From assembly GCF_003208055.1 (NCBI RefSeq), contig NZ_QJUE01000007.1, positions 1 to 64,000 on the forward strand: a DNA stretch of 64,000 nt. Reading direction: 5' to 3'. Positions 1,062 to 10,288 of this stretch are shown here, in pieces (the first letter of the stretch is position 1; every line of letters begins with the position of its first letter). Position numbers and translations under genes: made by a program. Under the pieces are notes generated by a model, which was given only the letters and a program-made list of their open reading frames with translations, was not told the origin of the DNA and made no database searches. The stretch is from Prochlorococcus marinus XMU1408 (GTDB lineage Bacteria; Cyanobacteriota; Cyanobacteriia; PCC-6307; Cyanobiaceae).

Positions 1062-1907
1062 TTAACCGATCATGGATTGTTGTATATTTGCGATTGATTC
1101 ATCTACATTGGTTGCATATTTAAAAGCAATTGCAGCTTGCATAAGATTCATATCTATACCATTACAGTAATTAATTTTTTTATCTTTAGCCCATAAAAGT
1201 AACTTAGTTAATGAAGGAGTATGTATCACATCAAAGATACCAATTGGTTTATTATGAGTATCAACTAAATCAAGAGAAATTGGAGAAAAATCTAAATTTT
1301 GATAATCACCAAGACTAGTACAATTAATTAATAATGTTTGATTAGTAAGATATTTATGTCGATCATTCCATTTAATATAATTAACATTTTTAAATCTAGA
1401 AAAAAATAAATTATCTTTATTTCTCGATGTTGCACATAACTCTATACCGGGATAATCAGTCAATAAAAATTCAGACAAAAAAGCAATGACAGCTTTTCCA
1501 ACTCCACCAACCCCTAAAATTAAAATTTTTTGCGGTAATACTTCACGATTAAAAAATATGGAATTTACACTAGATACTGCTGCAAGACCATCTGTATTAG
1601 CACCACATAAGACACCAGATTTATTTCTATATAAACAATTAATAGCTCCTAATCTAGATGTGGCCTCATCTTTAAGAGAGTTTTGAAGTATTTCAGCGAC
1701 TTTTTCTTTATAGGGAAAAGTCACACTTCCTCCTTGGAAATTATTATCAAATTTAAGTTTTTCAATTAAAGTATTTAATTCACTTTCGTTAGAAATATCA
1801 CATGCTTTCATTTCACAATTAATTTTGTAATTTTTATATGCTTTATTCCATAAACTTGGAGATCTAGCTCCTTTACTTGGCGAAATACCAATTATTAGAG
1901 AAAACAT
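1062..1907 (-). CDS. AroE-family (shikimate dehydrogenase-like) oxidoreductase, divergent paralog
   Basis: This 281-residue protein has the AroE fold signals in order: VTFPYK with the catalytic Lys at 67, GAIN near 87-90, GANTDG with the catalytic Asp at 106, the nucleotide loop GVGGVGKA near 132-139, LINCTSLG, and a C-terminal GIDMNLMQAA. The catalytic Lys/Asp pair is kept. The N-terminal carboxylate pocket is changed: where AroE has HSxSPxxH, this protein has GARSPSLW, so Ser14 (E. coli numbering, which aligns without gaps here) is Ala, His13 is Gly and His20 is Trp. The Asn before VT is Ser. It probably reduces a keto-cyclitol or keto-sugar that is not shikimate. It is the last gene of the minus-strand operon, 14 bases after the DAHP-synthase-like gene. 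It may still act on shikimate or quinate. Confidence 0.75.
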   Translation of the reverse strand: MFSLIIGISPSKGARSPSLWNKAYKNYKINCEMKACDISNESELNTLIEKLKFDNNFQGGSVTFPYKEKVAEILQNSLKDEATSRLGAINCLYRNKSGVLCGANTDGLAAVSSVNSIFFNREVLPQKILILGVGGVGKAVIAFLSEFLLTDYPGIELCATSRNKDNLFFSRFKNVNYIKWNDRHKYLTNQTLLINCTSLGDYQNLDFSPISLDLVDTHNKPIGIFDVIHTPSLTKLLLWAKDKKINYCNGIDMNLMQAAIAFKYATNVDESIANIQQSMIG

Positions 1908-1921
1908 TAATTCAGCGTAAT

Positions 1922-2815
1922 TTATCTTCCACTTCCAACTGTAACCTCACAAGCATCTCCTAAACGTTTGAGTTGCATCATTAAATCATTAAATTCTAAA
2001 TAATCTATAGCCTGCAAAGGATCAACAGCCGCCTGACTAGGATCAGGGTGAACCTCAATCATTAATCCATTAGCACCAACAGCTACTGATGCTTTTGCCA
2101 ACTTTGGAACCCAAGGCCTCCAAAAACATGCATGAGATGGGTCAGTTACAACTGGAAGGTGAGTAACTTCTTGCGCTGCGGGTACTACCTGTAAATCCAA
2201 CAAAAATCTTGAGGTTGAGCGATGCGTATGTGGAGCAACTATTCCTCTTTCACAAAGTATCACTCTCTTATTACCCTCTACTAAAATATATTCTGCAGCT
2301 CCAAGCCAATCTCTCAAAGAACAACCAAAACCACGCTTAAGCATTATTGGTTTCCCGGATTTTGCACATGCAGTAAGTAATGGATAATTTTGCATATTTC
2401 TGGCTCCAATCTGAAGAATATCTGCTACTCCTCCGATCATAGAAAGATATTTTTCTTCCATAATCTCAGTAATTACAGGCATTCCAGTAATAGACTTTGC
2501 TTCAGCAAGCCATTCCAAGCCAGATTCTCTTGTTTCAGTATATTTTTCTGAACGATAAGGGAAAGTCAAAGGCTTAAAAGCTCCACCTCTAAGAAAAGAA
2601 GCTCCGCTTTTCTGAATATTTAAAGCTACATCTATAATCAACTCTTTAGACTCAACCATATTTGGTCCAGCAAAAACTGGACATTTACCTGGACCAAATT
2701 CAACATTTGCAATCTCAAAGTTCGAATAGTGTGAGCTATCTTTTTTTGCAACTAAGGGGAACTTAGATTGAATATCCTCCAATGAAATATCCTTTCCAGG
2801 GTTGCTATTTTCCAT
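1922..2815 (-). CDS. DAHP/KDO8P-synthase-family aldolase, divergent paralog
   Basis: About 297 residues, matching the class I-beta DAHP synthase layout: RGGAFKP near 76-82, DILQIGARNMQN near 132-143, MLKRG near 158-162, ILCERG near 186-191, VTDPSHA near 223-229 and IEVHPDP near 253-259. Residues expected to hold PEP (the Lys of MLKRG, the Arg of CERG) and three metal-type ligands (His228, Glu254, Asp265) remain. Two key sites differ. GPCS, which supplies the metal Cys, is GPNM (Asn52), and the KPRTS loop that grips erythrose-4-phosphate is KPLTF. The enzyme therefore probably condenses PEP with another aldose and may work without metal. The ATG at 2815 overlaps the upstream stop as TGATG, so translation is likely coupled; a TTG one codon earlier is possible. 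Ordinary DAHP synthase activity cannot be excluded. Confidence 0.78.
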   Translation of the reverse strand: MENSNPGKDISLEDIQSKFPLVAKKDSSHYSNFEIANVEFGPGKCPVFAGPNMVESKELIIDVALNIQKSGASFLRGGAFKPLTFPYRSEKYTETRESGLEWLAEAKSITGMPVITEIMEEKYLSMIGGVADILQIGARNMQNYPLLTACAKSGKPIMLKRGFGCSLRDWLGAAEYILVEGNKRVILCERGIVAPHTHRSTSRFLLDLQVVPAAQEVTHLPVVTDPSHACFWRPWVPKLAKASVAVGANGLMIEVHPDPSQAAVDPLQAIDYLEFNDLMMQLKRLGDACEVTVGSGR

Positions 2816-3867
2816 CAATTACCTAAATAATCTGAAACTGATTTGCTGTCTACATTAACCCAAGTTCGAGACTCAGAGCTTTTGTAAAGAGAATGAATAG
2901 CGCGAACTGTATTAATAGTTGAAGAAGCGGAAATTATTGGATTTTTATCGAATTTTATAGAATCGATAAAATCATAAATAACATCCTTATGAGACTCACC
3001 ATACCCTGAACTTACATTGACAGATGCCTTAAGCAAGCGATCTTTCAAATCTTTGTCGAGTGAAGGCAATTCATAATCAACTATCTTATTTAATGCAACA
3101 CCGCCAACTTTTACAAAACCCTTAGTTCCTGCAATAAAGATAGAAGCCTCTTTATCTTTAGGTCTTATGGCTGTTGAGGCTTCGATAGTACCAACAGATC
3201 CAGACTCAAACTGCACTAAACCTGTCATGGTATCTTCTGCTTCTAAAAGGTTAATTTGGTTTGAAGCAAAAGCTGCAACCTGCTTAAAAGGACCATTTAT
3301 CCATTGCATTGCATCTATATGATGAATGGCCTGCTGATTTATTACCCCACCATCTTGTCGCCACGTGCCATGCCAACCATCATTGTAATAGTTTTGATAA
3401 CGACACCAATGCAACTTAATTGAGCAAATTTTGATATCTCCCAAATATTTCTTTTCGACTAATTCCTTAGCAATCTTCATAGACTTGTTTAATCTATTTT
3501 GAAAGATGACACCATATTTCAATGAAAGACTATTAGATAAATTGATCAATTCACATAGTTCAATCTCTTTCATAGTTGCAGGCTTCTCAGTTAAAACATT
3601 TACTCCAGCTTCTAACAGTTGCTTAGAAATATGATAATGTGTTCCAGAAATCGTAGCTACAATTGCAAAATCAATACCAAAATTAATTAATTGGTCAAAT
3701 GAAATTGCAACTGATAAGTTGACATGCTGTGGATGTAATTTTCTATCACATTTTTTTTTATCAATATCATATAAATAAACAATATGACCATTTTCCAATA
3801 AAGAAGAAACAAAATTATTTTTATAATGCTCATACACTCTACCTAAACCAATAATAGCAATTTTCAT
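2815..3867 (-). CDS. Gfo/Idh/MocA-family NAD(P)-dependent oxidoreductase
   Basis: A 350-residue protein starting with the dinucleotide-binding segment IAIIGLGRVYEHY. TEKPATM near residue 93 matches the family's EKP motif, and DGGVINQQAIHHIDAMQW near 170-190 matches the GG...H..D substrate motif. Family members oxidise or reduce hydroxyls of sugars and cyclitols, often on nucleotide-sugar pathways for surface polysaccharides. The gene overlaps the next one by a single base (TGATG) and lies 24 bases after the glycosyltransferase fusion, so it sits in the middle of one operon. It probably supplies or consumes a keto-sugar for the neighbouring aldolase or AroE-like enzyme; this step is inferred from position only. 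Confidence 0.8.
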   Translation of the reverse strand: MKIAIIGLGRVYEHYKNNFVSSLLENGHIVYLYDIDKKKCDRKLHPQHVNLSVAISFDQLINFGIDFAIVATISGTHYHISKQLLEAGVNVLTEKPATMKEIELCELINLSNSLSLKYGVIFQNRLNKSMKIAKELVEKKYLGDIKICSIKLHWCRYQNYYNDGWHGTWRQDGGVINQQAIHHIDAMQWINGPFKQVAAFASNQINLLEAEDTMTGLVQFESGSVGTIEASTAIRPKDKEASIFIAGTKGFVKVGGVALNKIVDYELPSLDKDLKDRLLKASVNVSSGYGESHKDVIYDFIDSIKFDKNPIISASSTINTVRAIHSLYKSSESRTWVNVDSKSVSDYLGN

Positions 3868-3891
3868 AAACTCGTCTAGAGAAGATTGATA

Positions 3892-5238
3892 TTATAACTT
3901 TAACAATAAGTTAGATAATTCATCATACTCATTTTGGTTACGACACACAAATGATGAGTTTCTATTCTTTAATGAATGAGTTTTAATTTGACCTTGAAAT
4001 ATATTTTTATTGCGAACATTGACTGGTCTTATAATTGTAAAATATCCAATTAATGATGTTATTATCTGTCCATGCCTTTCTGTTGACGGAATTACCCAGG
4101 AAGTACCTCCAAGCATAGTCAGGTCTCCTTCTTCCCCAAACCAAGTCGCCCTAGCTTCTCTCCAACTTGCAAAGATAGTGTCCAATGGTTCATCTATCAT
4201 TGTTTGAATCATTGCATCAACGACTTCATTCTCTCTAAATGGATAAATGATTTCAGCTACAGAAATTGAATCACAATAATCACCTTTAGATTCGATAGAT
4301 GCCAAAGTGTATTGGAGAACATCTTCTAGAGAGGACTGAGGAGAAGACAAATGACTTGGGCGTATTACAGTTTCCAAGCCAAGCAAATCAGAAAGATCAA
4401 TTTGATTATTTATATCTGTAGATAAAATTATTTTATTTATCAACTTACATTTTCTTAAACAGTTGATAGTTTTTTTAATTAAAGGAAGGTTTTTATATGT
4501 GACATCAGTTCCTTTAATGGGAACAATACAATAAGAAGTATGCTTTAAATTTTTCAGATTATTATGAGTTCTAAGCCTAGGAATTGTATCTAAAATTCTT
4601 ACAATATTCTTTGCACGTTCAGGATTTAATTGATGATGAATTCCATGCCAATGAAAAACACTTGATTCTGCAACATATGCCAACTTAAAACCATTACTTA
4701 TTACTTCTTCGCCCCAAATCCTATCTTCAATATTTGTGGAGATATTGGAGAAAGGATATTTATTCCATATCTCCCTTCTAAAAGCACTATTCGCATTATG
4801 AAAGAAAGAGTCTTTTGATTGAATATAACTATCAAGGCCGAATACTAAAAGAAGATCTCTTTTATCTACATCACTACTATTGCTGGTAGGTTCCTGCCTA
4901 CCATAGCAGCCTGCTATGGATTTATCCTCTAGAGGCTTTATTAAATTTTCAAGCCATAAATTATTAGTAGGAATGCAATGTGCACTTAAACAGCATATCA
5001 AATCTCCTTTTGAAGCCTCTATACCTAAATTGATAGCTTTACCAGGAAAAAATTCATTAATAGTGACTATTTTTACATTAAATTTCTTACATCTTGCAAT
5101 CGTTGTATCAGTAGAGCAATTATCAACAATTATCACTTCAATATTTTTATATGTTTGCTCAAAAACAGCTTCTAAACATTTTGTTATCCATGCTTCCTCA
5201 TTTTTTGTTCTAATTATTATTGAACAAAGTTTATCCAT
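3892..5238 (-). CDS. Family 2 glycosyltransferase fused to a degenerate cytidylyltransferase-like domain
   Basis: About 448 residues in two parts. Residues 1-230 are a GT2 domain: CSIIIRTKNEE at the start, VIIVDNCSTD near 37-46, LSAHCIPTNNLW near 84-95 in the place of the metal/donor motif, and NANSAFRREIW, as in rhamnosyltransferase-like GT2 proteins. From about residue 236 the sequence follows the CMP-sugar synthetase (NeuA/KdsB) fold: CIVPIKGTDVTYKN aligns with the nucleotide loop IPARGGSxRxPxKN but has lost the RGGS core, followed by KIILSTD and an RPSHLSS segment. The fused domain is thus probably a CMP-sugar binding or inactive domain. ATG at 5238 is preferred to two GTG codons just before it. 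The gene lies 152 bases downstream of a complete cytidylyltransferase gene in the same operon. Confidence 0.75.
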   Translation of the reverse strand: MDKLCSIIIRTKNEEAWITKCLEAVFEQTYKNIEVIIVDNCSTDTTIARCKKFNVKIVTINEFFPGKAINLGIEASKGDLICCLSAHCIPTNNLWLENLIKPLEDKSIAGCYGRQEPTSNSSDVDKRDLLLVFGLDSYIQSKDSFFHNANSAFRREIWNKYPFSNISTNIEDRIWGEEVISNGFKLAYVAESSVFHWHGIHHQLNPERAKNIVRILDTIPRLRTHNNLKNLKHTSYCIVPIKGTDVTYKNLPLIKKTINCLRKCKLINKIILSTDINNQIDLSDLLGLETVIRPSHLSSPQSSLEDVLQYTLASIESKGDYCDSISVAEIIYPFRENEVVDAMIQTMIDEPLDTIFASWREARATWFGEEGDLTMLGGTSWVIPSTERHGQIITSLIGYFTIIRPVNVRNKNIFQGQIKTHSLKNRNSSFVCRNQNEYDELSNLLLKL

Positions 5239-5255
5239 CACCACTGTTACGATTA

Positions 5256-5277
5256 CTTTTCTACTATAGTAGAAAAG
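5256..5277. repeat. Perfect 22-bp palindrome upstream of the glycosyltransferase fusion
   Basis: CTTTTCTACTA is followed directly by its reverse complement TAGTAGAAAAG. It lies 17 bases upstream of the ATG at 5238, between two genes of the same operon. It may be an operator, an RNA hairpin near the ribosome site, or a processing site. No U-run follows on the minus strand, so it does not look like a terminator of the operon. Confidence 0.6.
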
Positions 5278-5396
5278 ATAGTTTTTGTACTTTCAGTGTA
5301 AATAAAAAGTATTTTATATATATTGACTAAAACCATACTAAGAATTAATCCTCAAATCTATTTCCAGTTAGATTTCAATAGAAATAAATAGCGAAT

Positions 5397-6185
5397 TCAA
5401 TCATAAATATGATTGAATATTTTTTTATCCAAAACCTTTTCATTTGATTGAATAATTAATTTTGCAATCGCAAGATCTTCTAAAGTATCAATATCATATG
5501 CTTCAAAATTATTAATTATATATCCAGAAGAATTTTTAAAATTAAATGTTGGTCCGGAGGAATTTTCTGCACTGATTTTTTTATTTATATATTTTTCTAT
5601 AAAATAATGAGTTTCAGTAATCTTACAAGCAGGCGAACTAGCAAAAGAGAGTGGTCTATCTTGGCTTCTTTCAATGTCATATAATTTACAACCATCAATA
5701 TCATATATTTGTGTTTCAATTCTTCTATCTTTCTCAGAGTAAGAAAGAAAGCTTAAAGCACTCACCCTAGGAATATGTATACTCATTATTGAATCAATAT
5801 CTCTATTTTCTTTCTTCAAATCAATCATCTTCCTTATAGATAGTGGTGTCAGGAACGGATTGGTAGGGGGCTTAAAAATAATAATTTCGGGTAAATCACA
5901 ATTATTTTTAATCAATTCATACAAAACATGAACAATCACACTGATTGAGGTACTTTTAGCCGAAGATAAATTAGATGGTCTTAAGAAAGGGACTTCAACA
6001 CCTAAAGATTCGCAATAATTTGCTATTTCAGTAGAATCAGTACTCACTATAATTCCAACATCATCTAATAACGATGCAGCCTTAATTGAATAATAGATAA
6101 GTGGCTTTCCATTTAATAATGAAAGATTTTTATTAGGTACTCTTGTCGATCCTCCTCGTGCAGGAATAATAATTAGTGACTTCAT
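5397..6185 (-). CDS. Acylneuraminate/KDO-type cytidylyltransferase (CMP-sugar synthetase)
   Basis: A 262-residue protein with the complete CTP loop IIIPARGGSTRVPNKN at residues 5-20, IVSTDS near 45-50, RPSNLSSAKST near 69-79 and a C-terminal AYDIDTLEDL, all typical of the NeuA-like family. It would activate a 2-keto-3-deoxy sugar acid or a related acidic sugar to its CMP form in the cytoplasm. It is the first gene of the minus-strand operon that continues to 1062, and the neighbouring aldolase of the PEP-condensing family is a plausible source of its substrate. Sialic, legionaminic or pseudaminic acid pathway genes are not visible in the window, so the sugar is unknown. Confidence 0.82.
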   Translation of the reverse strand: MKSLIIIPARGGSTRVPNKNLSLLNGKPLIYYSIKAASLLDDVGIIVSTDSTEIANYCESLGVEVPFLRPSNLSSAKSTSISVIVHVLYELIKNNCDLPEIIIFKPPTNPFLTPLSIRKMIDLKKENRDIDSIMSIHIPRVSALSFLSYSEKDRRIETQIYDIDGCKLYDIERSQDRPLSFASSPACKITETHYFIEKYINKKISAENSSGPTFNFKNSSGYIINNFEAYDIDTLEDLAIAKLIIQSNEKVLDKKIFNHIYD

Positions 6186-6405: not shown

Positions 6406-6477
6406 AGCGGATGAAGAGATTCGAACTCTCGACATTCTCCTTGGCAAGGAGATGCTCTACCACTGAGCTACATCCGC
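6406..6477 (-). tRNA. tRNA-Gly (anticodon GCC)
   Basis: On the minus strand a full cloverleaf can be drawn: acceptor stem GCGGATG/CATCCGC, D arm GCTC...GAGC, anticodon stem TCTCC/GGAGA around the loop TTGCCAA (anticodon GCC), and T arm with TTCGAAT. It is 72 bases including a T discriminator. CCA is not encoded. Its 3' end points toward the accessory operon at 1062-6185, whereas core genes lie on its 5' side. Confidence 0.96.
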
Positions 6478-7357: not shown

Positions 7358-7420
7358 GATTGAAGCTGCAGAAAAGTTTCTCAATGTTCAATAATTCTCC
7401 CATGTAAGTGTTTGTTTGAC

Positions 7421-7484
7421 GTATTACTCTTCATATTTGTAGTGAGGCTTCACATGCAAAAAAAATAAATTCTTCTAATATAAC
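7421..7484. promoter_or_regulatory. Candidate divergent promoters for psbZ and mutS
   Basis: Within the intergenic region, minus-strand TAATAC (7421-7426) is a -10-like box facing psbZ. TAATAT/TATAAC (7476-7484) is one facing mutS. No convincing -35 box pairs with either, so this is only a candidate assignment. Confidence 0.3.
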
Positions 7485-7507
7485 TTGATTAAAGAGCGAG
7501 TAATTAA

Positions 7508-10288
7508 ATGGCTGCCAGCCAAAACCCTATACAAGGCAGTCTTTTTGGAGGAAACGAGCAGAGCTGTATTAATGAATCTGAGCAAGCTAATACTTCAAAA
7601 ATAGACAACGAAAGTCTTTCACATCAACAATTAAAAGATGACGCATCGCGAAGACCTCGCTTAAAAAAGGCATCTACTGAGCCAAATAAGATCACTGATA
7701 TTGATGAATTTACAAATACTGAAATTGAAGAACCCAAATGGTCACACCACAATTTGCCAAATATTGATGATCTAACTCCTGCCTTGAGGCATTATGTAGA
7801 ACTTAAGATAGAAAATCCTGAAAGAGTACTGCTTTATAGGCTTGGAGATTTTTTCGAGTGTTTTTTTGAAGATGCAATAAAAATCTCTCAAATTCTGGAA
7901 ATAACACTCACAAGTAAAGAAGGAGGTAAAAAAATTGGAAAAGTCCCTATGGCGGGAATTCCTCACCATGCATCTGATCGTTATTGCACAGAGCTTATTA
8001 AAAAAGGTTTATCAATTGCTATTTGTGATCAACTTGAAGCTGCTCCAACAAAAGGCAATAAATTAATAAAGAGAGGAATTACTCGATTAATAACCCCTGG
8101 AACAATTTTAGAAGAAGGGATGCTAAGGGCTAAACACAATAATTGGCTAGCATCTGTTCTCATAAAATCTACTTCTAAGTCTGAGATAATTAGCTGGTCA
8201 TTAGCAAAGATAGATGTAAGCACCGGTGAATTTATTGTTCAAGAAGGTAAAGAAGTTAATAACTTACGTCAAGAATTGATCAAATTAAAAGCAGCTGAAG
8301 TTATTTCAGAAAAAAATTCTATTTCTAATAAAAGATGGTACGAAGGAATAACAGCCATAACAGAATTTAATCAAACCGCATTCTCTAATTTAGAAGCTGA
8401 AACGACTATTAAAAATCATTATTGTTTAAATAATATTGACGGGTTAGGTATAAATCAAAATTCACTATTAATCAGAACAGTTGGGGGGTTAATAGCATAT
8501 TTGAACAAAACTCATCCCAACCTTAGTGCTGAAACCGGAAATAAAATAAAAACAAATATATGCATTGACTACCCTCAAATAAAAAATAATCAAGTTGGTT
8601 TAATAATAGATAATCAAACAAGGAGAAATTTAGAAATAACTTCAACTCAAAAAAATGGACAATTTAACGGTTCATTACTCTGGGCAATTGATAAAACATT
8701 AACTGCAATGGGGGGTAGATGTATTAGGAGGTGGGTAGAAGAACCTTTAACAGATATTTACTCAATTGAAAATAGACAGAAAATCATTGGATTACTAGTC
8801 AAATCAACCACTTTAAGAAGAAATATCAGGAAAATACTAAGAGCTATGGGTGATTTAGAGCGTCTTTCAGGCAGGGCAGGAGCCCAACAATCTGGAGCAA
8901 GAGATTTAGTTGCTATCGCAGAAGGGATTAACCGTTTACCTGTAATTAAAAAATATCTTAATGATCCAATATTTGAAAATGCTAAGTATTTTGAACCAAT
9001 TATAAATTTAGATAAGAGATTAATAGAAATTGCATCAAAAATAAATGACCAAATCATAGATAATCCTCCCCTTAGCCTAACAGAGGGTGGTATATTTTAT
9101 GATGGTATAGATCCTATACTTGATGGACTTCGTAATCAACTTGATGATCATAATTCATGGCTAAAATCTCAGGAATTGCAAGAAAGAAAAAATAGTAATA
9201 TAAATAATCTAAAACTTCAATATCATAGGTCGTTTGGATACTTTTTAGCAGTAAGTAAGGCAAAATCAATAAATGTTCCTGAACACTGGATCAGAAGGCA
9301 GACCTTAACTAATGAAGAACGTTTTGTGACACCAGGTCTCAAAGAAAGAGAAGGTAAAATCTTTCAAGTTAGAGCACGAATATCACAACTTGAATATGAA
9401 ATTTTTTGTAATCTTAGAATACTTGTTGGTAAACAAGCAAATATTATCAGAAAAGCTGCAAAAGCAATTTCTTGCTTAGATGTTTTATCTGGACTAGCGG
9501 AATTAGCTGCTACAAATGATTATGTTCAGCCTAAAATAGTAGATAATCAAGATCAAAATAAATCGAGAAAGTTATCTATTATAGGTGGTCGTCATCCAGT
9601 CGTTGAGCAAATTCTAGTTGATACAGTTTTCGTACCTAATGACATAGAACTTGGCTGTAAGACTGATTTAATAATACTTTCAGGTCCAAATGCAAGTGGA
9701 AAAAGTTGTTACTTAAGACAAGTAGGTCTGTTGCAAATCATGGCTCAAATCGGTAGTTGGATACCAGCTAAATCTGGAACTTTGGGCATTGCTGATCAAC
9801 TTTTCACACGCGTTGGAGCAGTAGATGATTTAGCAGCAGGTCAATCAACATTTATGGTTGAAATGATTGAAACAGCATTTATTCTGAATAAAGCCACCGA
9901 AAAATCATTAGTTTTATTAGATGAAATTGGACGAGGAACATCAACTTTTGATGGCTTATCTATTGCCTGGTCAGTAAGCGAATTTTTAGCAACTAAAATA
10001 AAAAGTCGTTCAATATTTGCAACTCATTATCATGAGTTGAATCAGATTTCTGAATATATTGATAATGTAGAAAATTACCAAGTTTTAGTAAAACATAATA
10101 ATAATTCACTTTCTTTCCTTCACAAAGTTGAAAAAGGAGGAACAAATAAAAGCTATGGAATTGAAGCTGCTCGCCTTGCAGGAGTCCCAATAGAAGTCGT
10201 CAATAATGCAAAAAAGGTATTAAATAGTCTTGAAAAAAATAATACTAATACAATTCAAATCACCAATCCAATTAAAAGACAAATTTAG
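7508..10288 (+). CDS. mutS: DNA mismatch repair protein MutS
   Basis: A 926-residue MutS1. The mismatch-contact motif appears as GDFFECFFEDA near residue 116. The ATPase has Walker A GPNASGKS near 725, DEIGRGTST near 804 and a Walker-B/signature region after it, then the conserved ATHYHEL. An N-terminal extension of about 90 charged residues precedes the usual start of domain I. It begins with IQGSLFGG (residues 8-15), which fits the sliding-clamp binding consensus QxSLF. The C-terminus ends soon after the helix-turn-helix region and shows no such motif. It recognises mismatches and recruits the repair machinery. The gene stands alone, with cobH convergent downstream. Confidence 0.97.
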   Translation: MAASQNPIQGSLFGGNEQSCINESEQANTSKIDNESLSHQQLKDDASRRPRLKKASTEPNKITDIDEFTNTEIEEPKWSHHNLPNIDDLTPALRHYVELKIENPERVLLYRLGDFFECFFEDAIKISQILEITLTSKEGGKKIGKVPMAGIPHHASDRYCTELIKKGLSIAICDQLEAAPTKGNKLIKRGITRLITPGTILEEGMLRAKHNNWLASVLIKSTSKSEIISWSLAKIDVSTGEFIVQEGKEVNNLRQELIKLKAAEVISEKNSISNKRWYEGITAITEFNQTAFSNLEAETTIKNHYCLNNIDGLGINQNSLLIRTVGGLIAYLNKTHPNLSAETGNKIKTNICIDYPQIKNNQVGLIIDNQTRRNLEITSTQKNGQFNGSLLWAIDKTLTAMGGRCIRRWVEEPLTDIYSIENRQKIIGLLVKSTTLRRNIRKILRAMGDLERLSGRAGAQQSGARDLVAIAEGINRLPVIKKYLNDPIFENAKYFEPIINLDKRLIEIASKINDQIIDNPPLSLTEGGIFYDGIDPILDGLRNQLDDHNSWLKSQELQERKNSNINNLKLQYHRSFGYFLAVSKAKSINVPEHWIRRQTLTNEERFVTPGLKEREGKIFQVRARISQLEYEIFCNLRILVGKQANIIRKAAKAISCLDVLSGLAELAATNDYVQPKIVDNQDQNKSRKLSIIGGRHPVVEQILVDTVFVPNDIELGCKTDLIILSGPNASGKSCYLRQVGLLQIMAQIGSWIPAKSGTLGIADQLFTRVGAVDDLAAGQSTFMVEMIETAFILNKATEKSLVLLDEIGRGTSTFDGLSIAWSVSEFLATKIKSRSIFATHYHELNQISEYIDNVENYQVLVKHNNNSLSFLHKVEKGGTNKSYGIEAARLAGVPIEVVNNAKKVLNSLEKNNTNTIQITNPIKRQI

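Follow-up and report, generated by a model that had tools for sequence, protein, structure and literature searches.

A patchily distributed five-gene cassette in Prochlorococcus marinus XMU1408 that may make, activate and transfer a 2-ulosonic acid

In the route to 3-deoxy-D-manno-oct-2-ulosonic acid (Kdo), a phosphoenolpyruvate (PEP) aldolase, KdsA, is followed by a cytidine monophosphate (CMP)-synthetase, KdsB, and by Kdo transferase, and the routes to sialic, legionaminic and pseudaminic acids run through NeuB and NeuA/PseF. Here, we describe a computational analysis of five genes in a 64,000-nucleotide stretch of Prochlorococcus marinus XMU1408 (positions 1 to 64,000 of contig NZ_QJUE01000007.1, or C7; hereafter the window). 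In transcription order, they encode a cytidylyltransferase (CMP), a glycosyltransferase family 2 domain fused to a second CMP-synthetase-like domain (GT2), a Gfo/Idh/MocA dehydrogenase (GFO), an aldolase related to 3-deoxy-D-arabino-heptulosonate 7-phosphate (DAHP) synthase (ALD) and an AroE-like dehydrogenase (ARO); these working names are used throughout. We infer, at a probability of roughly 0.6, a self-contained, patchily distributed module, its reactions, product and acceptor all included in that inference, which would make, CMP-activate and transfer a 2-ulosonic acid. The cassette recurrence, the co-occurrence of its genes and the modified active site of ALD, all read from sequence, support the original prediction of an operon that makes, activates and transfers an acidic sugar.

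The cassette works like the Kdo and sialic make–activate–transfer routes and is a member of none of the known ones, because ALD fails some features of DAHP synthase and of Kdo 8-phosphate (KDO8P) synthase and because NeuB is absent. First, it resembles the Kdo route in pairing a PEP aldolase with a CMP-synthetase and a transferase, and the KdsA of E. coli likewise has an Asn at its metal site; however, ALD is nearer to DAHP synthase than to KDO8P synthase, lacks the KAN motif, and is joined by two dehydrogenases. Second, the cassette cytidylyltransferase is closest to the CMP-pseudaminate and CMP-neuraminate synthetases of the sialic-type routes, whereas the genome has no NeuB and the cassette aldolase comes from another family. 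Third, ALD and ARO keep the folds and most catalytic residues of the type I-beta DAHP synthase and the AroE of the shikimate pathway, whereas an Arg and a Cys are replaced in ALD, HSxSP of AroE has become GARSP in ARO, and neither is a housekeeping gene. Fourth, the closest parallel to a CTP_transf_3 domain that works with oxidoreductases on an ulosonate is EpaA/EpaB of Acinetobacter prophages, which, in the part of PMC12053666 available, unite CTP_transf_3 with two oxidoreductase activities and are inserted at tRNA-Gly; their oxidoreductases are of other families, and that part gives them neither an aldolase nor a transferase. Among open-licence papers we found no description of the cassette, and PMC11898729, which concerns SAR11 O-chain clusters, contained none of the terms sought in it.

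Recurrence of the cassette

ALD was sought in one genome per species, 84,980 species in all, with six peptide patterns, none of which covers the KPL motif discussed below; 78 loci were retrieved, or 79 with the window. The peptide DWLGAAEY is held by 77 of the 79 aldolase rows, and one locus (L014) was retrieved only through a pattern that contains Asn. Carriers include Prochlorococcus, SAR11, SAR86, SAR116, SAR324, Marinomonas, Roseibium, Denitromonas and others, spanning nine phyla according to the submitters' titles with one locus (L082) left aside, many of them metagenome bins whose labels are fallible. With a partner counted if it scored at least 45 bits and lay no farther than 10 kb from ALD, ARO was found in 71 of the 79 loci, GFO in 68, GT2 in 67 and CMP in 63, with many of the misses at contig ends, and the exact order CMP–GT2–GFO–ALD–ARO was kept in 38. 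Strains with the complete set of five include Prochlorococcus MIT 9302, Pelagibacter HTCC9565, Marinomonas ostreistagni USM7 and Denitromonas iodatirespirans IR-12. Clustering of the open reading frames (ORFs) within 8 kb of ALD gave no further family present in over 20 loci.

The association also holds in reverse, with a match above 100 bits taken as a cassette-type ARO. Among 300 genomes of the window's own family, ALD is present in seven (four of which overlap with loci of the species scan), and a cassette-type ARO occurs in six of these; the other 293 have none, their best match being 65 bits. The seventh, G290, has an ARO match of 57 bits, the strength of an ordinary AroE, yet this ARO is a neighbour of GFO at 1.4 kb from ALD, and CMP is present. 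In the SAR11 family (247 genomes), ALD was found in 11; a cassette-type ARO is present in ten of them, on the same contig as ALD and less than 6 kb away, and the remaining 236 have none (best 89.6 bits). In the one left over, G531, the match reaches no more than 89 bits, again the strength of an ordinary AroE, and lies 5.5 kb from ALD. The five genes, whose joint occurrence elsewhere the original prediction had put up for checking, thus recur as a cassette across marine and other bacteria, in both directions of the test.

Distances between the gene products correlate in all ten pairs (r 0.52–0.93; 0 of 999 permutations reach the value), most strongly for GFO–GT2 (0.93), ARO–GFO (0.86) and ARO–GT2 (0.85), and common descent by itself also yields such correlations. 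Fusions and splits of the same parts occur as well: in a Vicinamibacterales bin, GFO and ARO form one ORF of 730 amino acids with both Pfam domain sets (L075:7066-9258), and two cytidylyltransferase-like genes come after GT2 in L071, L072 and L073, of which the second matches the fused C-domain of GT2.

Individual loci carry variants. The CMP protein is 580–583 amino acids long in four of them (L010, L016, L018 and L019), and in L010:2145-3893 a Pfam methyltransferase with an O-methyltransferase dimerisation domain lies behind the cytidylyltransferase, so the sugar may be methylated there. A protein of 580–604 amino acids, carbamoyltransferase-like by eye, stands between ALD and ARO or nearby at L035:10885-12699, L078:10885-12699 and L096:15420-17168, its family being present in five loci. 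L096 (G086) further holds a second, truncated ALD-like ORF of 172 amino acids with 43% identity beside its intact cassette (7378-7896). A NeuB-family gene is located between ARO and GT2 in three deep-branching loci (L071:11992-12993, L077:12000-12941 and L073:11988-13607), in the last of which it lies partly inside the GT2 ORF. The apparent ARO of 1,933 amino acids in L038 was set aside, as it runs into an assembly gap.

An aldolase altered at its substrate and metal sites

The original prediction placed a DAHP-synthase relative in the aldolase slot rather than a protein of the NeuB/KdsA type, and profile searches agree with it: ALD exceeds the cut-off of the DAHP synthase model TIGR01361 (275.8 vs. 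267.75 bits) and misses that of the KDO8P synthase model TIGR01362 (103.4 vs. 314 bits). Its score against PRK08673 is 312.7, below the cut-off of 335, and its closest PDB relatives are DAHP synthases. Motifs were counted on 78 family members, L082 being excluded since it carries KPRTS and the Cys and is an ordinary enzyme. In all 78, KPRTS is replaced by KPL[TS]F, with Leu in place of Arg, and the metal-ligand Cys is replaced by Asn in 72. The six that keep the Cys (L071, L072, L073, L075, L076 and L077) form their own group in the tree (98/86), set against 99/95 for the other 72 rows, with the bootstrap unsettled. The other sites are preserved in 78 of 78: the His, an acidic ligand that is Glu or Asp, and the Asp. 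The controls were nine ordinary DAHP synthases, namely those heading the 113 plasmid records described below, and all nine keep both the Cys and KPR. The corresponding KDO8P-type motif is KANR in E. coli KdsA, whose metal site reads GGMN, and KANRT in three SAR11/Roseibium homologues.

In the available part of PMC6362186, the Arg of KPRT binds erythrose 4-phosphate in the T. maritima enzyme, and the reported DAHP synthases are all metalloenzymes. For KDO8P synthases, an excerpt of PMC3052366 describes the exchange of Cys for Asn as a switch between metal and non-metal enzymes that is required for metal independence. By analogy, ALD should be metal-independent, because it has the same Cys-to-Asn exchange, and should not use erythrose 4-phosphate; an unphosphorylated acceptor fits the loss of the Arg, on the same kind of comparison.

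The remainder of the genome (1,795,147 bases, 99.74% complete) bears on the roles of ALD and ARO. Contig C7 encodes a second DAHP_synth_1 protein at 79330-80217 (313.5 bits), AroG-like by reading, and a second AroE at 89883 (93.9 bits). Neither ALD nor ARO is the housekeeping copy, and the organism does not depend on them as its only DAHP synthase and shikimate dehydrogenase, a possibility that the original prediction had raised against itself. In this genome, PF00793 is matched above its cut-off only by ALD and the AroG-like protein, so there is no KdsA; PF03102, for NeuB, has no match; and CTP_transf_3 is found only in CMP and in the C-domain of GT2. With neither NeuB nor KdsA, nothing evident in this genome other than ALD would supply the synthetase with an ulosonate, DAHP itself apart.

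Partner enzymes and the proposed pathway

The AroE-family assignment of ARO, which the original prediction contained, agrees with its Pfam match and with an AlphaFold2 model (predicted local distance difference test, pLDDT, 95.6) whose nearest folds are of the AroE family. However, ARO passes none of the 17 listed NCBIfam cut-offs for shikimate dehydrogenase (best 115.2 vs. 252). K67 and D106, which we take to be the catalytic Lys and Asp of AroE, are invariant in 30 of 30 aligned sequences. In AroE, the Ser pair of HSxSP binds the shikimate carboxylate; where AroE has SxSP, ARSP is found in all 30, the first Ser having become Ala. The relatives and fold matches of ARO include 5-ketofructose reductase, an AroE fold that acts on a keto-sugar.

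ALD and ARO might be spare shikimate-pathway enzymes that came by chance to lie in a surface-glycan island, and both the DAHP synthase cut-off passed by ALD and the AroE-family structures nearest to ARO would suit this. We rejected this explanation, which we consider highly improbable, on account of the housekeeping copies of both and the changed active site, which in ALD affects the substrate and the metal site; the two-way co-occurrence, the retained gene order and the failure of ARO at every shikimate dehydrogenase cut-off also speak against it. The joint retention of a DAHP synthase fold and an AroE fold, both from the shikimate pathway, together with the AroE-type Lys and Asp in ARO, would also suit a carbocyclic product: the housekeeping dehydroquinate synthase would close the ring of a heptulosonate made by ALD, and ARO would reduce the result to an acid resembling quinate or shikimate, which is afterwards attached. 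Since dehydroquinate synthase depends on the 7-phosphate, such a route requires a phosphorylated acceptor. However, the Arg that binds erythrose 4-phosphate is lost in 78 of 78, and a cytidylyltransferase with CMP-using transfer suits an anomeric ulosonate more than a cyclitol. Moreover, the five have no conserved sixth partner family, and hence neither a cyclase nor a dehydratase. We regard the carbocyclic route as quite unlikely; of the two products offered by the original prediction, a 2-ulosonate is favoured and a carbocyclic acid less so.

The best PDB matches of GFO are 3q2i (E 2.8e-44, 154.6 bits) and 3q2k (E 4e-40, 141 bits), both presumably WlbA, the counterpart of WbpB, and the next is a glucuronide-3-dehydrogenase at 69.3 bits. 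GFO thus resembles the WlbA/WbpB sugar 3-dehydrogenases, a matter of sequence kinship only; however, with no sixth family conserved, GFO has no conserved aminotransferase neighbour. WbpB, according to the accessible portion of PMC10622841, oxidises C3 of uridine diphosphate N-acetylglucosaminuronic acid (UDP-GlcNAcA).

The CMP protein is closest to CMP-pseudaminate synthetase (best PDB match 9ftb, E 8.7e-19), followed by CMP-neuraminate synthetase, and scores 108.9 bits against the PseF model (cut-off 205.7). This kinship, and the NeuB genes near the cassette in some loci, would be consistent with a remodelling of a known ulosonate made by ALD, which would be epimerised by GFO and ARO together with the additional cytidylyltransferase-like domain. 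There is a model for this in EpaA (CTP_transf_3 plus an aldo-keto reductase) and EpaB (a short-chain dehydrogenase/reductase), which turn pseudaminic acid into 8-epipseudaminic acid in the excerpt of PMC12053666. However, this genome has neither NeuB nor KdsA, ALD has neither the KAN motif of KDO8P synthase nor the motif of DAHP synthase, and GFO and ARO differ in family from EpaA and EpaB; remodelling is in our view unlikely.

The glycosyltransferase domain of GT2 is far above its Pfam cut-off (99.8 vs. 23.3 bits), whereas the fused CTP_transf_3 domain clears its own narrowly (25.1 vs. 22.6 bits). The AlphaFold2 model of GT2 has two domains (pLDDT 87.8; predicted template modelling score, pTM, 0.61); its top matches are two-domain glycosyltransferases with template modelling (TM) scores of 0.27–0.40, and CMP-pseudaminate and CMP-neuraminate synthetases match the C-domain in lower rows (TMt 0.71–0.77). 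GT2 enzymes usually carry a DxD motif. In the cassette family this is missing, S[AG]HC being found in 62 of 62 full-length members (5 of 67 were dropped for length). CMP-sugars hold a single phosphate and their transferases are often metal-independent, so the loss of DxD fits a CMP donor without proving it.

In the 2-ulosonate module that we favour, ALD would join PEP to an aldehyde, perhaps unphosphorylated, to give a 3-deoxy-2-ulosonic acid. GFO and ARO may form an oxidation/reduction pair, one that fixes a hydroxyl or keto group in either the acceptor sugar or the product. Activation of the acid with cytidine triphosphate would fall to the CMP protein, and the DxD-less domain of GT2 would move it from CMP to an acceptor already in the cell; binding the CMP-sugar or handing it over may be the task of the fused CMP-synthetase-like domain. 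More tentatively, and with less than even confidence, these features might add to KdsA and NeuB a third branch of 2-ulosonate synthases, in which a metal-independent aldolase derived from DAHP synthase uses an unphosphorylated aldehyde, the CMP-activated ulosonic acid is an unlisted one moved by a DxD-less GT2, and the six members with Cys are a metal-dependent sister group.

Several observations weigh against the 2-ulosonate module or parts of it. At the 45-bit threshold, L027, L051, L063 and L066 lack most partners although the sequence extends 2.2 kb or more to either side of ALD, and L017, L022, L069, L077 and L081 lack one or two. G290 has no GT2, the ARO of G378 in the SAR11 family has two internal stops, and CMP is the least coupled of the five genes (r 0.52–0.65). 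A NeuB family is found within 8 kb of ALD in nine loci, and therefore another ulosonate could be activated there, which weakens the argument in those loci and not in this genome. As for the aldolase, conserved residues near the altered motif (FPYR, and HTH with usually R or K) could, from the sequence, be phosphate binders, and KDO8P synthases need further changes near the Asp for good metal-free activity, according to the excerpt of PMC3052366.

Coordinates, genomic setting and implications

The five ORFs occupy 1062-6185 (Table 1). As the original prediction stated, they are co-directional; all are uninterrupted, and the Pfam matches of all five proteins are above the curated cut-offs. The intergenic gaps in transcription order are 152, 24, −4 and 14 bases, so that its description of some genes as overlapping applies to the GFO–ALD junction and not to the other three. 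If ALD begins at the ATG beside the listed TTG, the upper coordinate of its gene is 2815 rather than 2818, the protein has 297 amino acids, and the overlap is 1 base. A protein containing tetratricopeptide repeats lies at 1-1020 of the window on the plus strand and is cut by the contig end.

Table 1. Features of the cassette in window coordinates
Feature	Coordinates	Strand	Evidence
CMP, cytidylyltransferase (CTP_transf_3), 262 aa	5397..6185	-	PF02348 82.8 bits
GT2, glycosyltransferase family 2 domain + C-terminal CMP-synthetase-like domain (CTP_transf_3), 450 aa	3892..5244	-	PF00535 99.8 bits, PF02348 25.1 bits
S-A-H-C at the usual GT2 DxD place	4975..4986	-	S[AG]HC in 62/62 full-length members
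GFO, Gfo/Idh/MocA dehydrogenase, 350 aa	2815..3867	-	PF02894, PF22725, PF01408 above cut-off
ALD, DAHP-synthase-type-I-beta-like PEP aldolase (DAHP_synth_1), 298 aa	1922..2818	-	PF00793 182.2 bits
ALD Asn replacing metal-ligand Cys (AGPN)	2660..2662	-	Family alignment + controls
ALD KPLTF replacing KPRTS, substrate-binding Arg gone	2561..2575	-	Family alignment + controls
ARO, AroE-like dehydrogenase (Shikimate_dh_N), 281 aa, GARSP replacing HSxSP	1062..1907	-	PF08501 47.9 bits
tRNA-Gly (gcc) adjoining the cassette	6406..6477	-	ARAGORN

The cassette has a guanine plus cytosine (GC) content of 0.319, lower than all 105 overlapping stretches of equal size in the rest of the window (0.327–0.383). 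Together with the adjoining tRNA-Gly and the patchy presence of ALD in relatives (7 of 300), this makes the island status that the original prediction gave to the cassette plausible. The second edge of the island is invisible because the window begins at base 1 of contig C7, and no second copy of the 3′ end of the tRNA-Gly was found within the window. A tRNA is located near the cassette in five of the seven Prochlorococcus loci of the species scan: tRNA-Gly in L006, as in the window, and tRNA-Cys in L007, L008, L013 and L020, with none in L009 and L080. L008, L013 and L020 hold divergent versions of the cassette at the same tRNA-Cys locus, with flanking ORF families 24, 32 and 33 in common, and the gene nearest the tRNA-Cys is ARO in the first and CMP in the other two, as if they had been inserted independently. 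In the Marinomonas locus L034, the upstream-side genes beside the five were judged by reading not to be glycan genes. Carriage by phages or plasmids was rejected: 16 phage and 113 plasmid records match ALD, all below 60% identity, no closer than ordinary DAHP synthases. A pattern search of IMG/VR, which detects close relatives only, gave no match for ALD.

If the proposed module is real, some members of Prochlorococcus, SAR11, SAR86 and SAR116, which are among the most numerous bacteria of the sea, would make a new acidic sugar, probably one destined for the cell surface, the site of action of phages and grazers. The module would be a novel route to the 2-ulosonic acids, and ALD would be the first DAHP-synthase relative predicted to be metal-free, those reported being all metalloenzymes as far as the available part of PMC6362186 goes. 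The model also predicts an alpha-keto-acid sugar content that could be checked in cultured strains.

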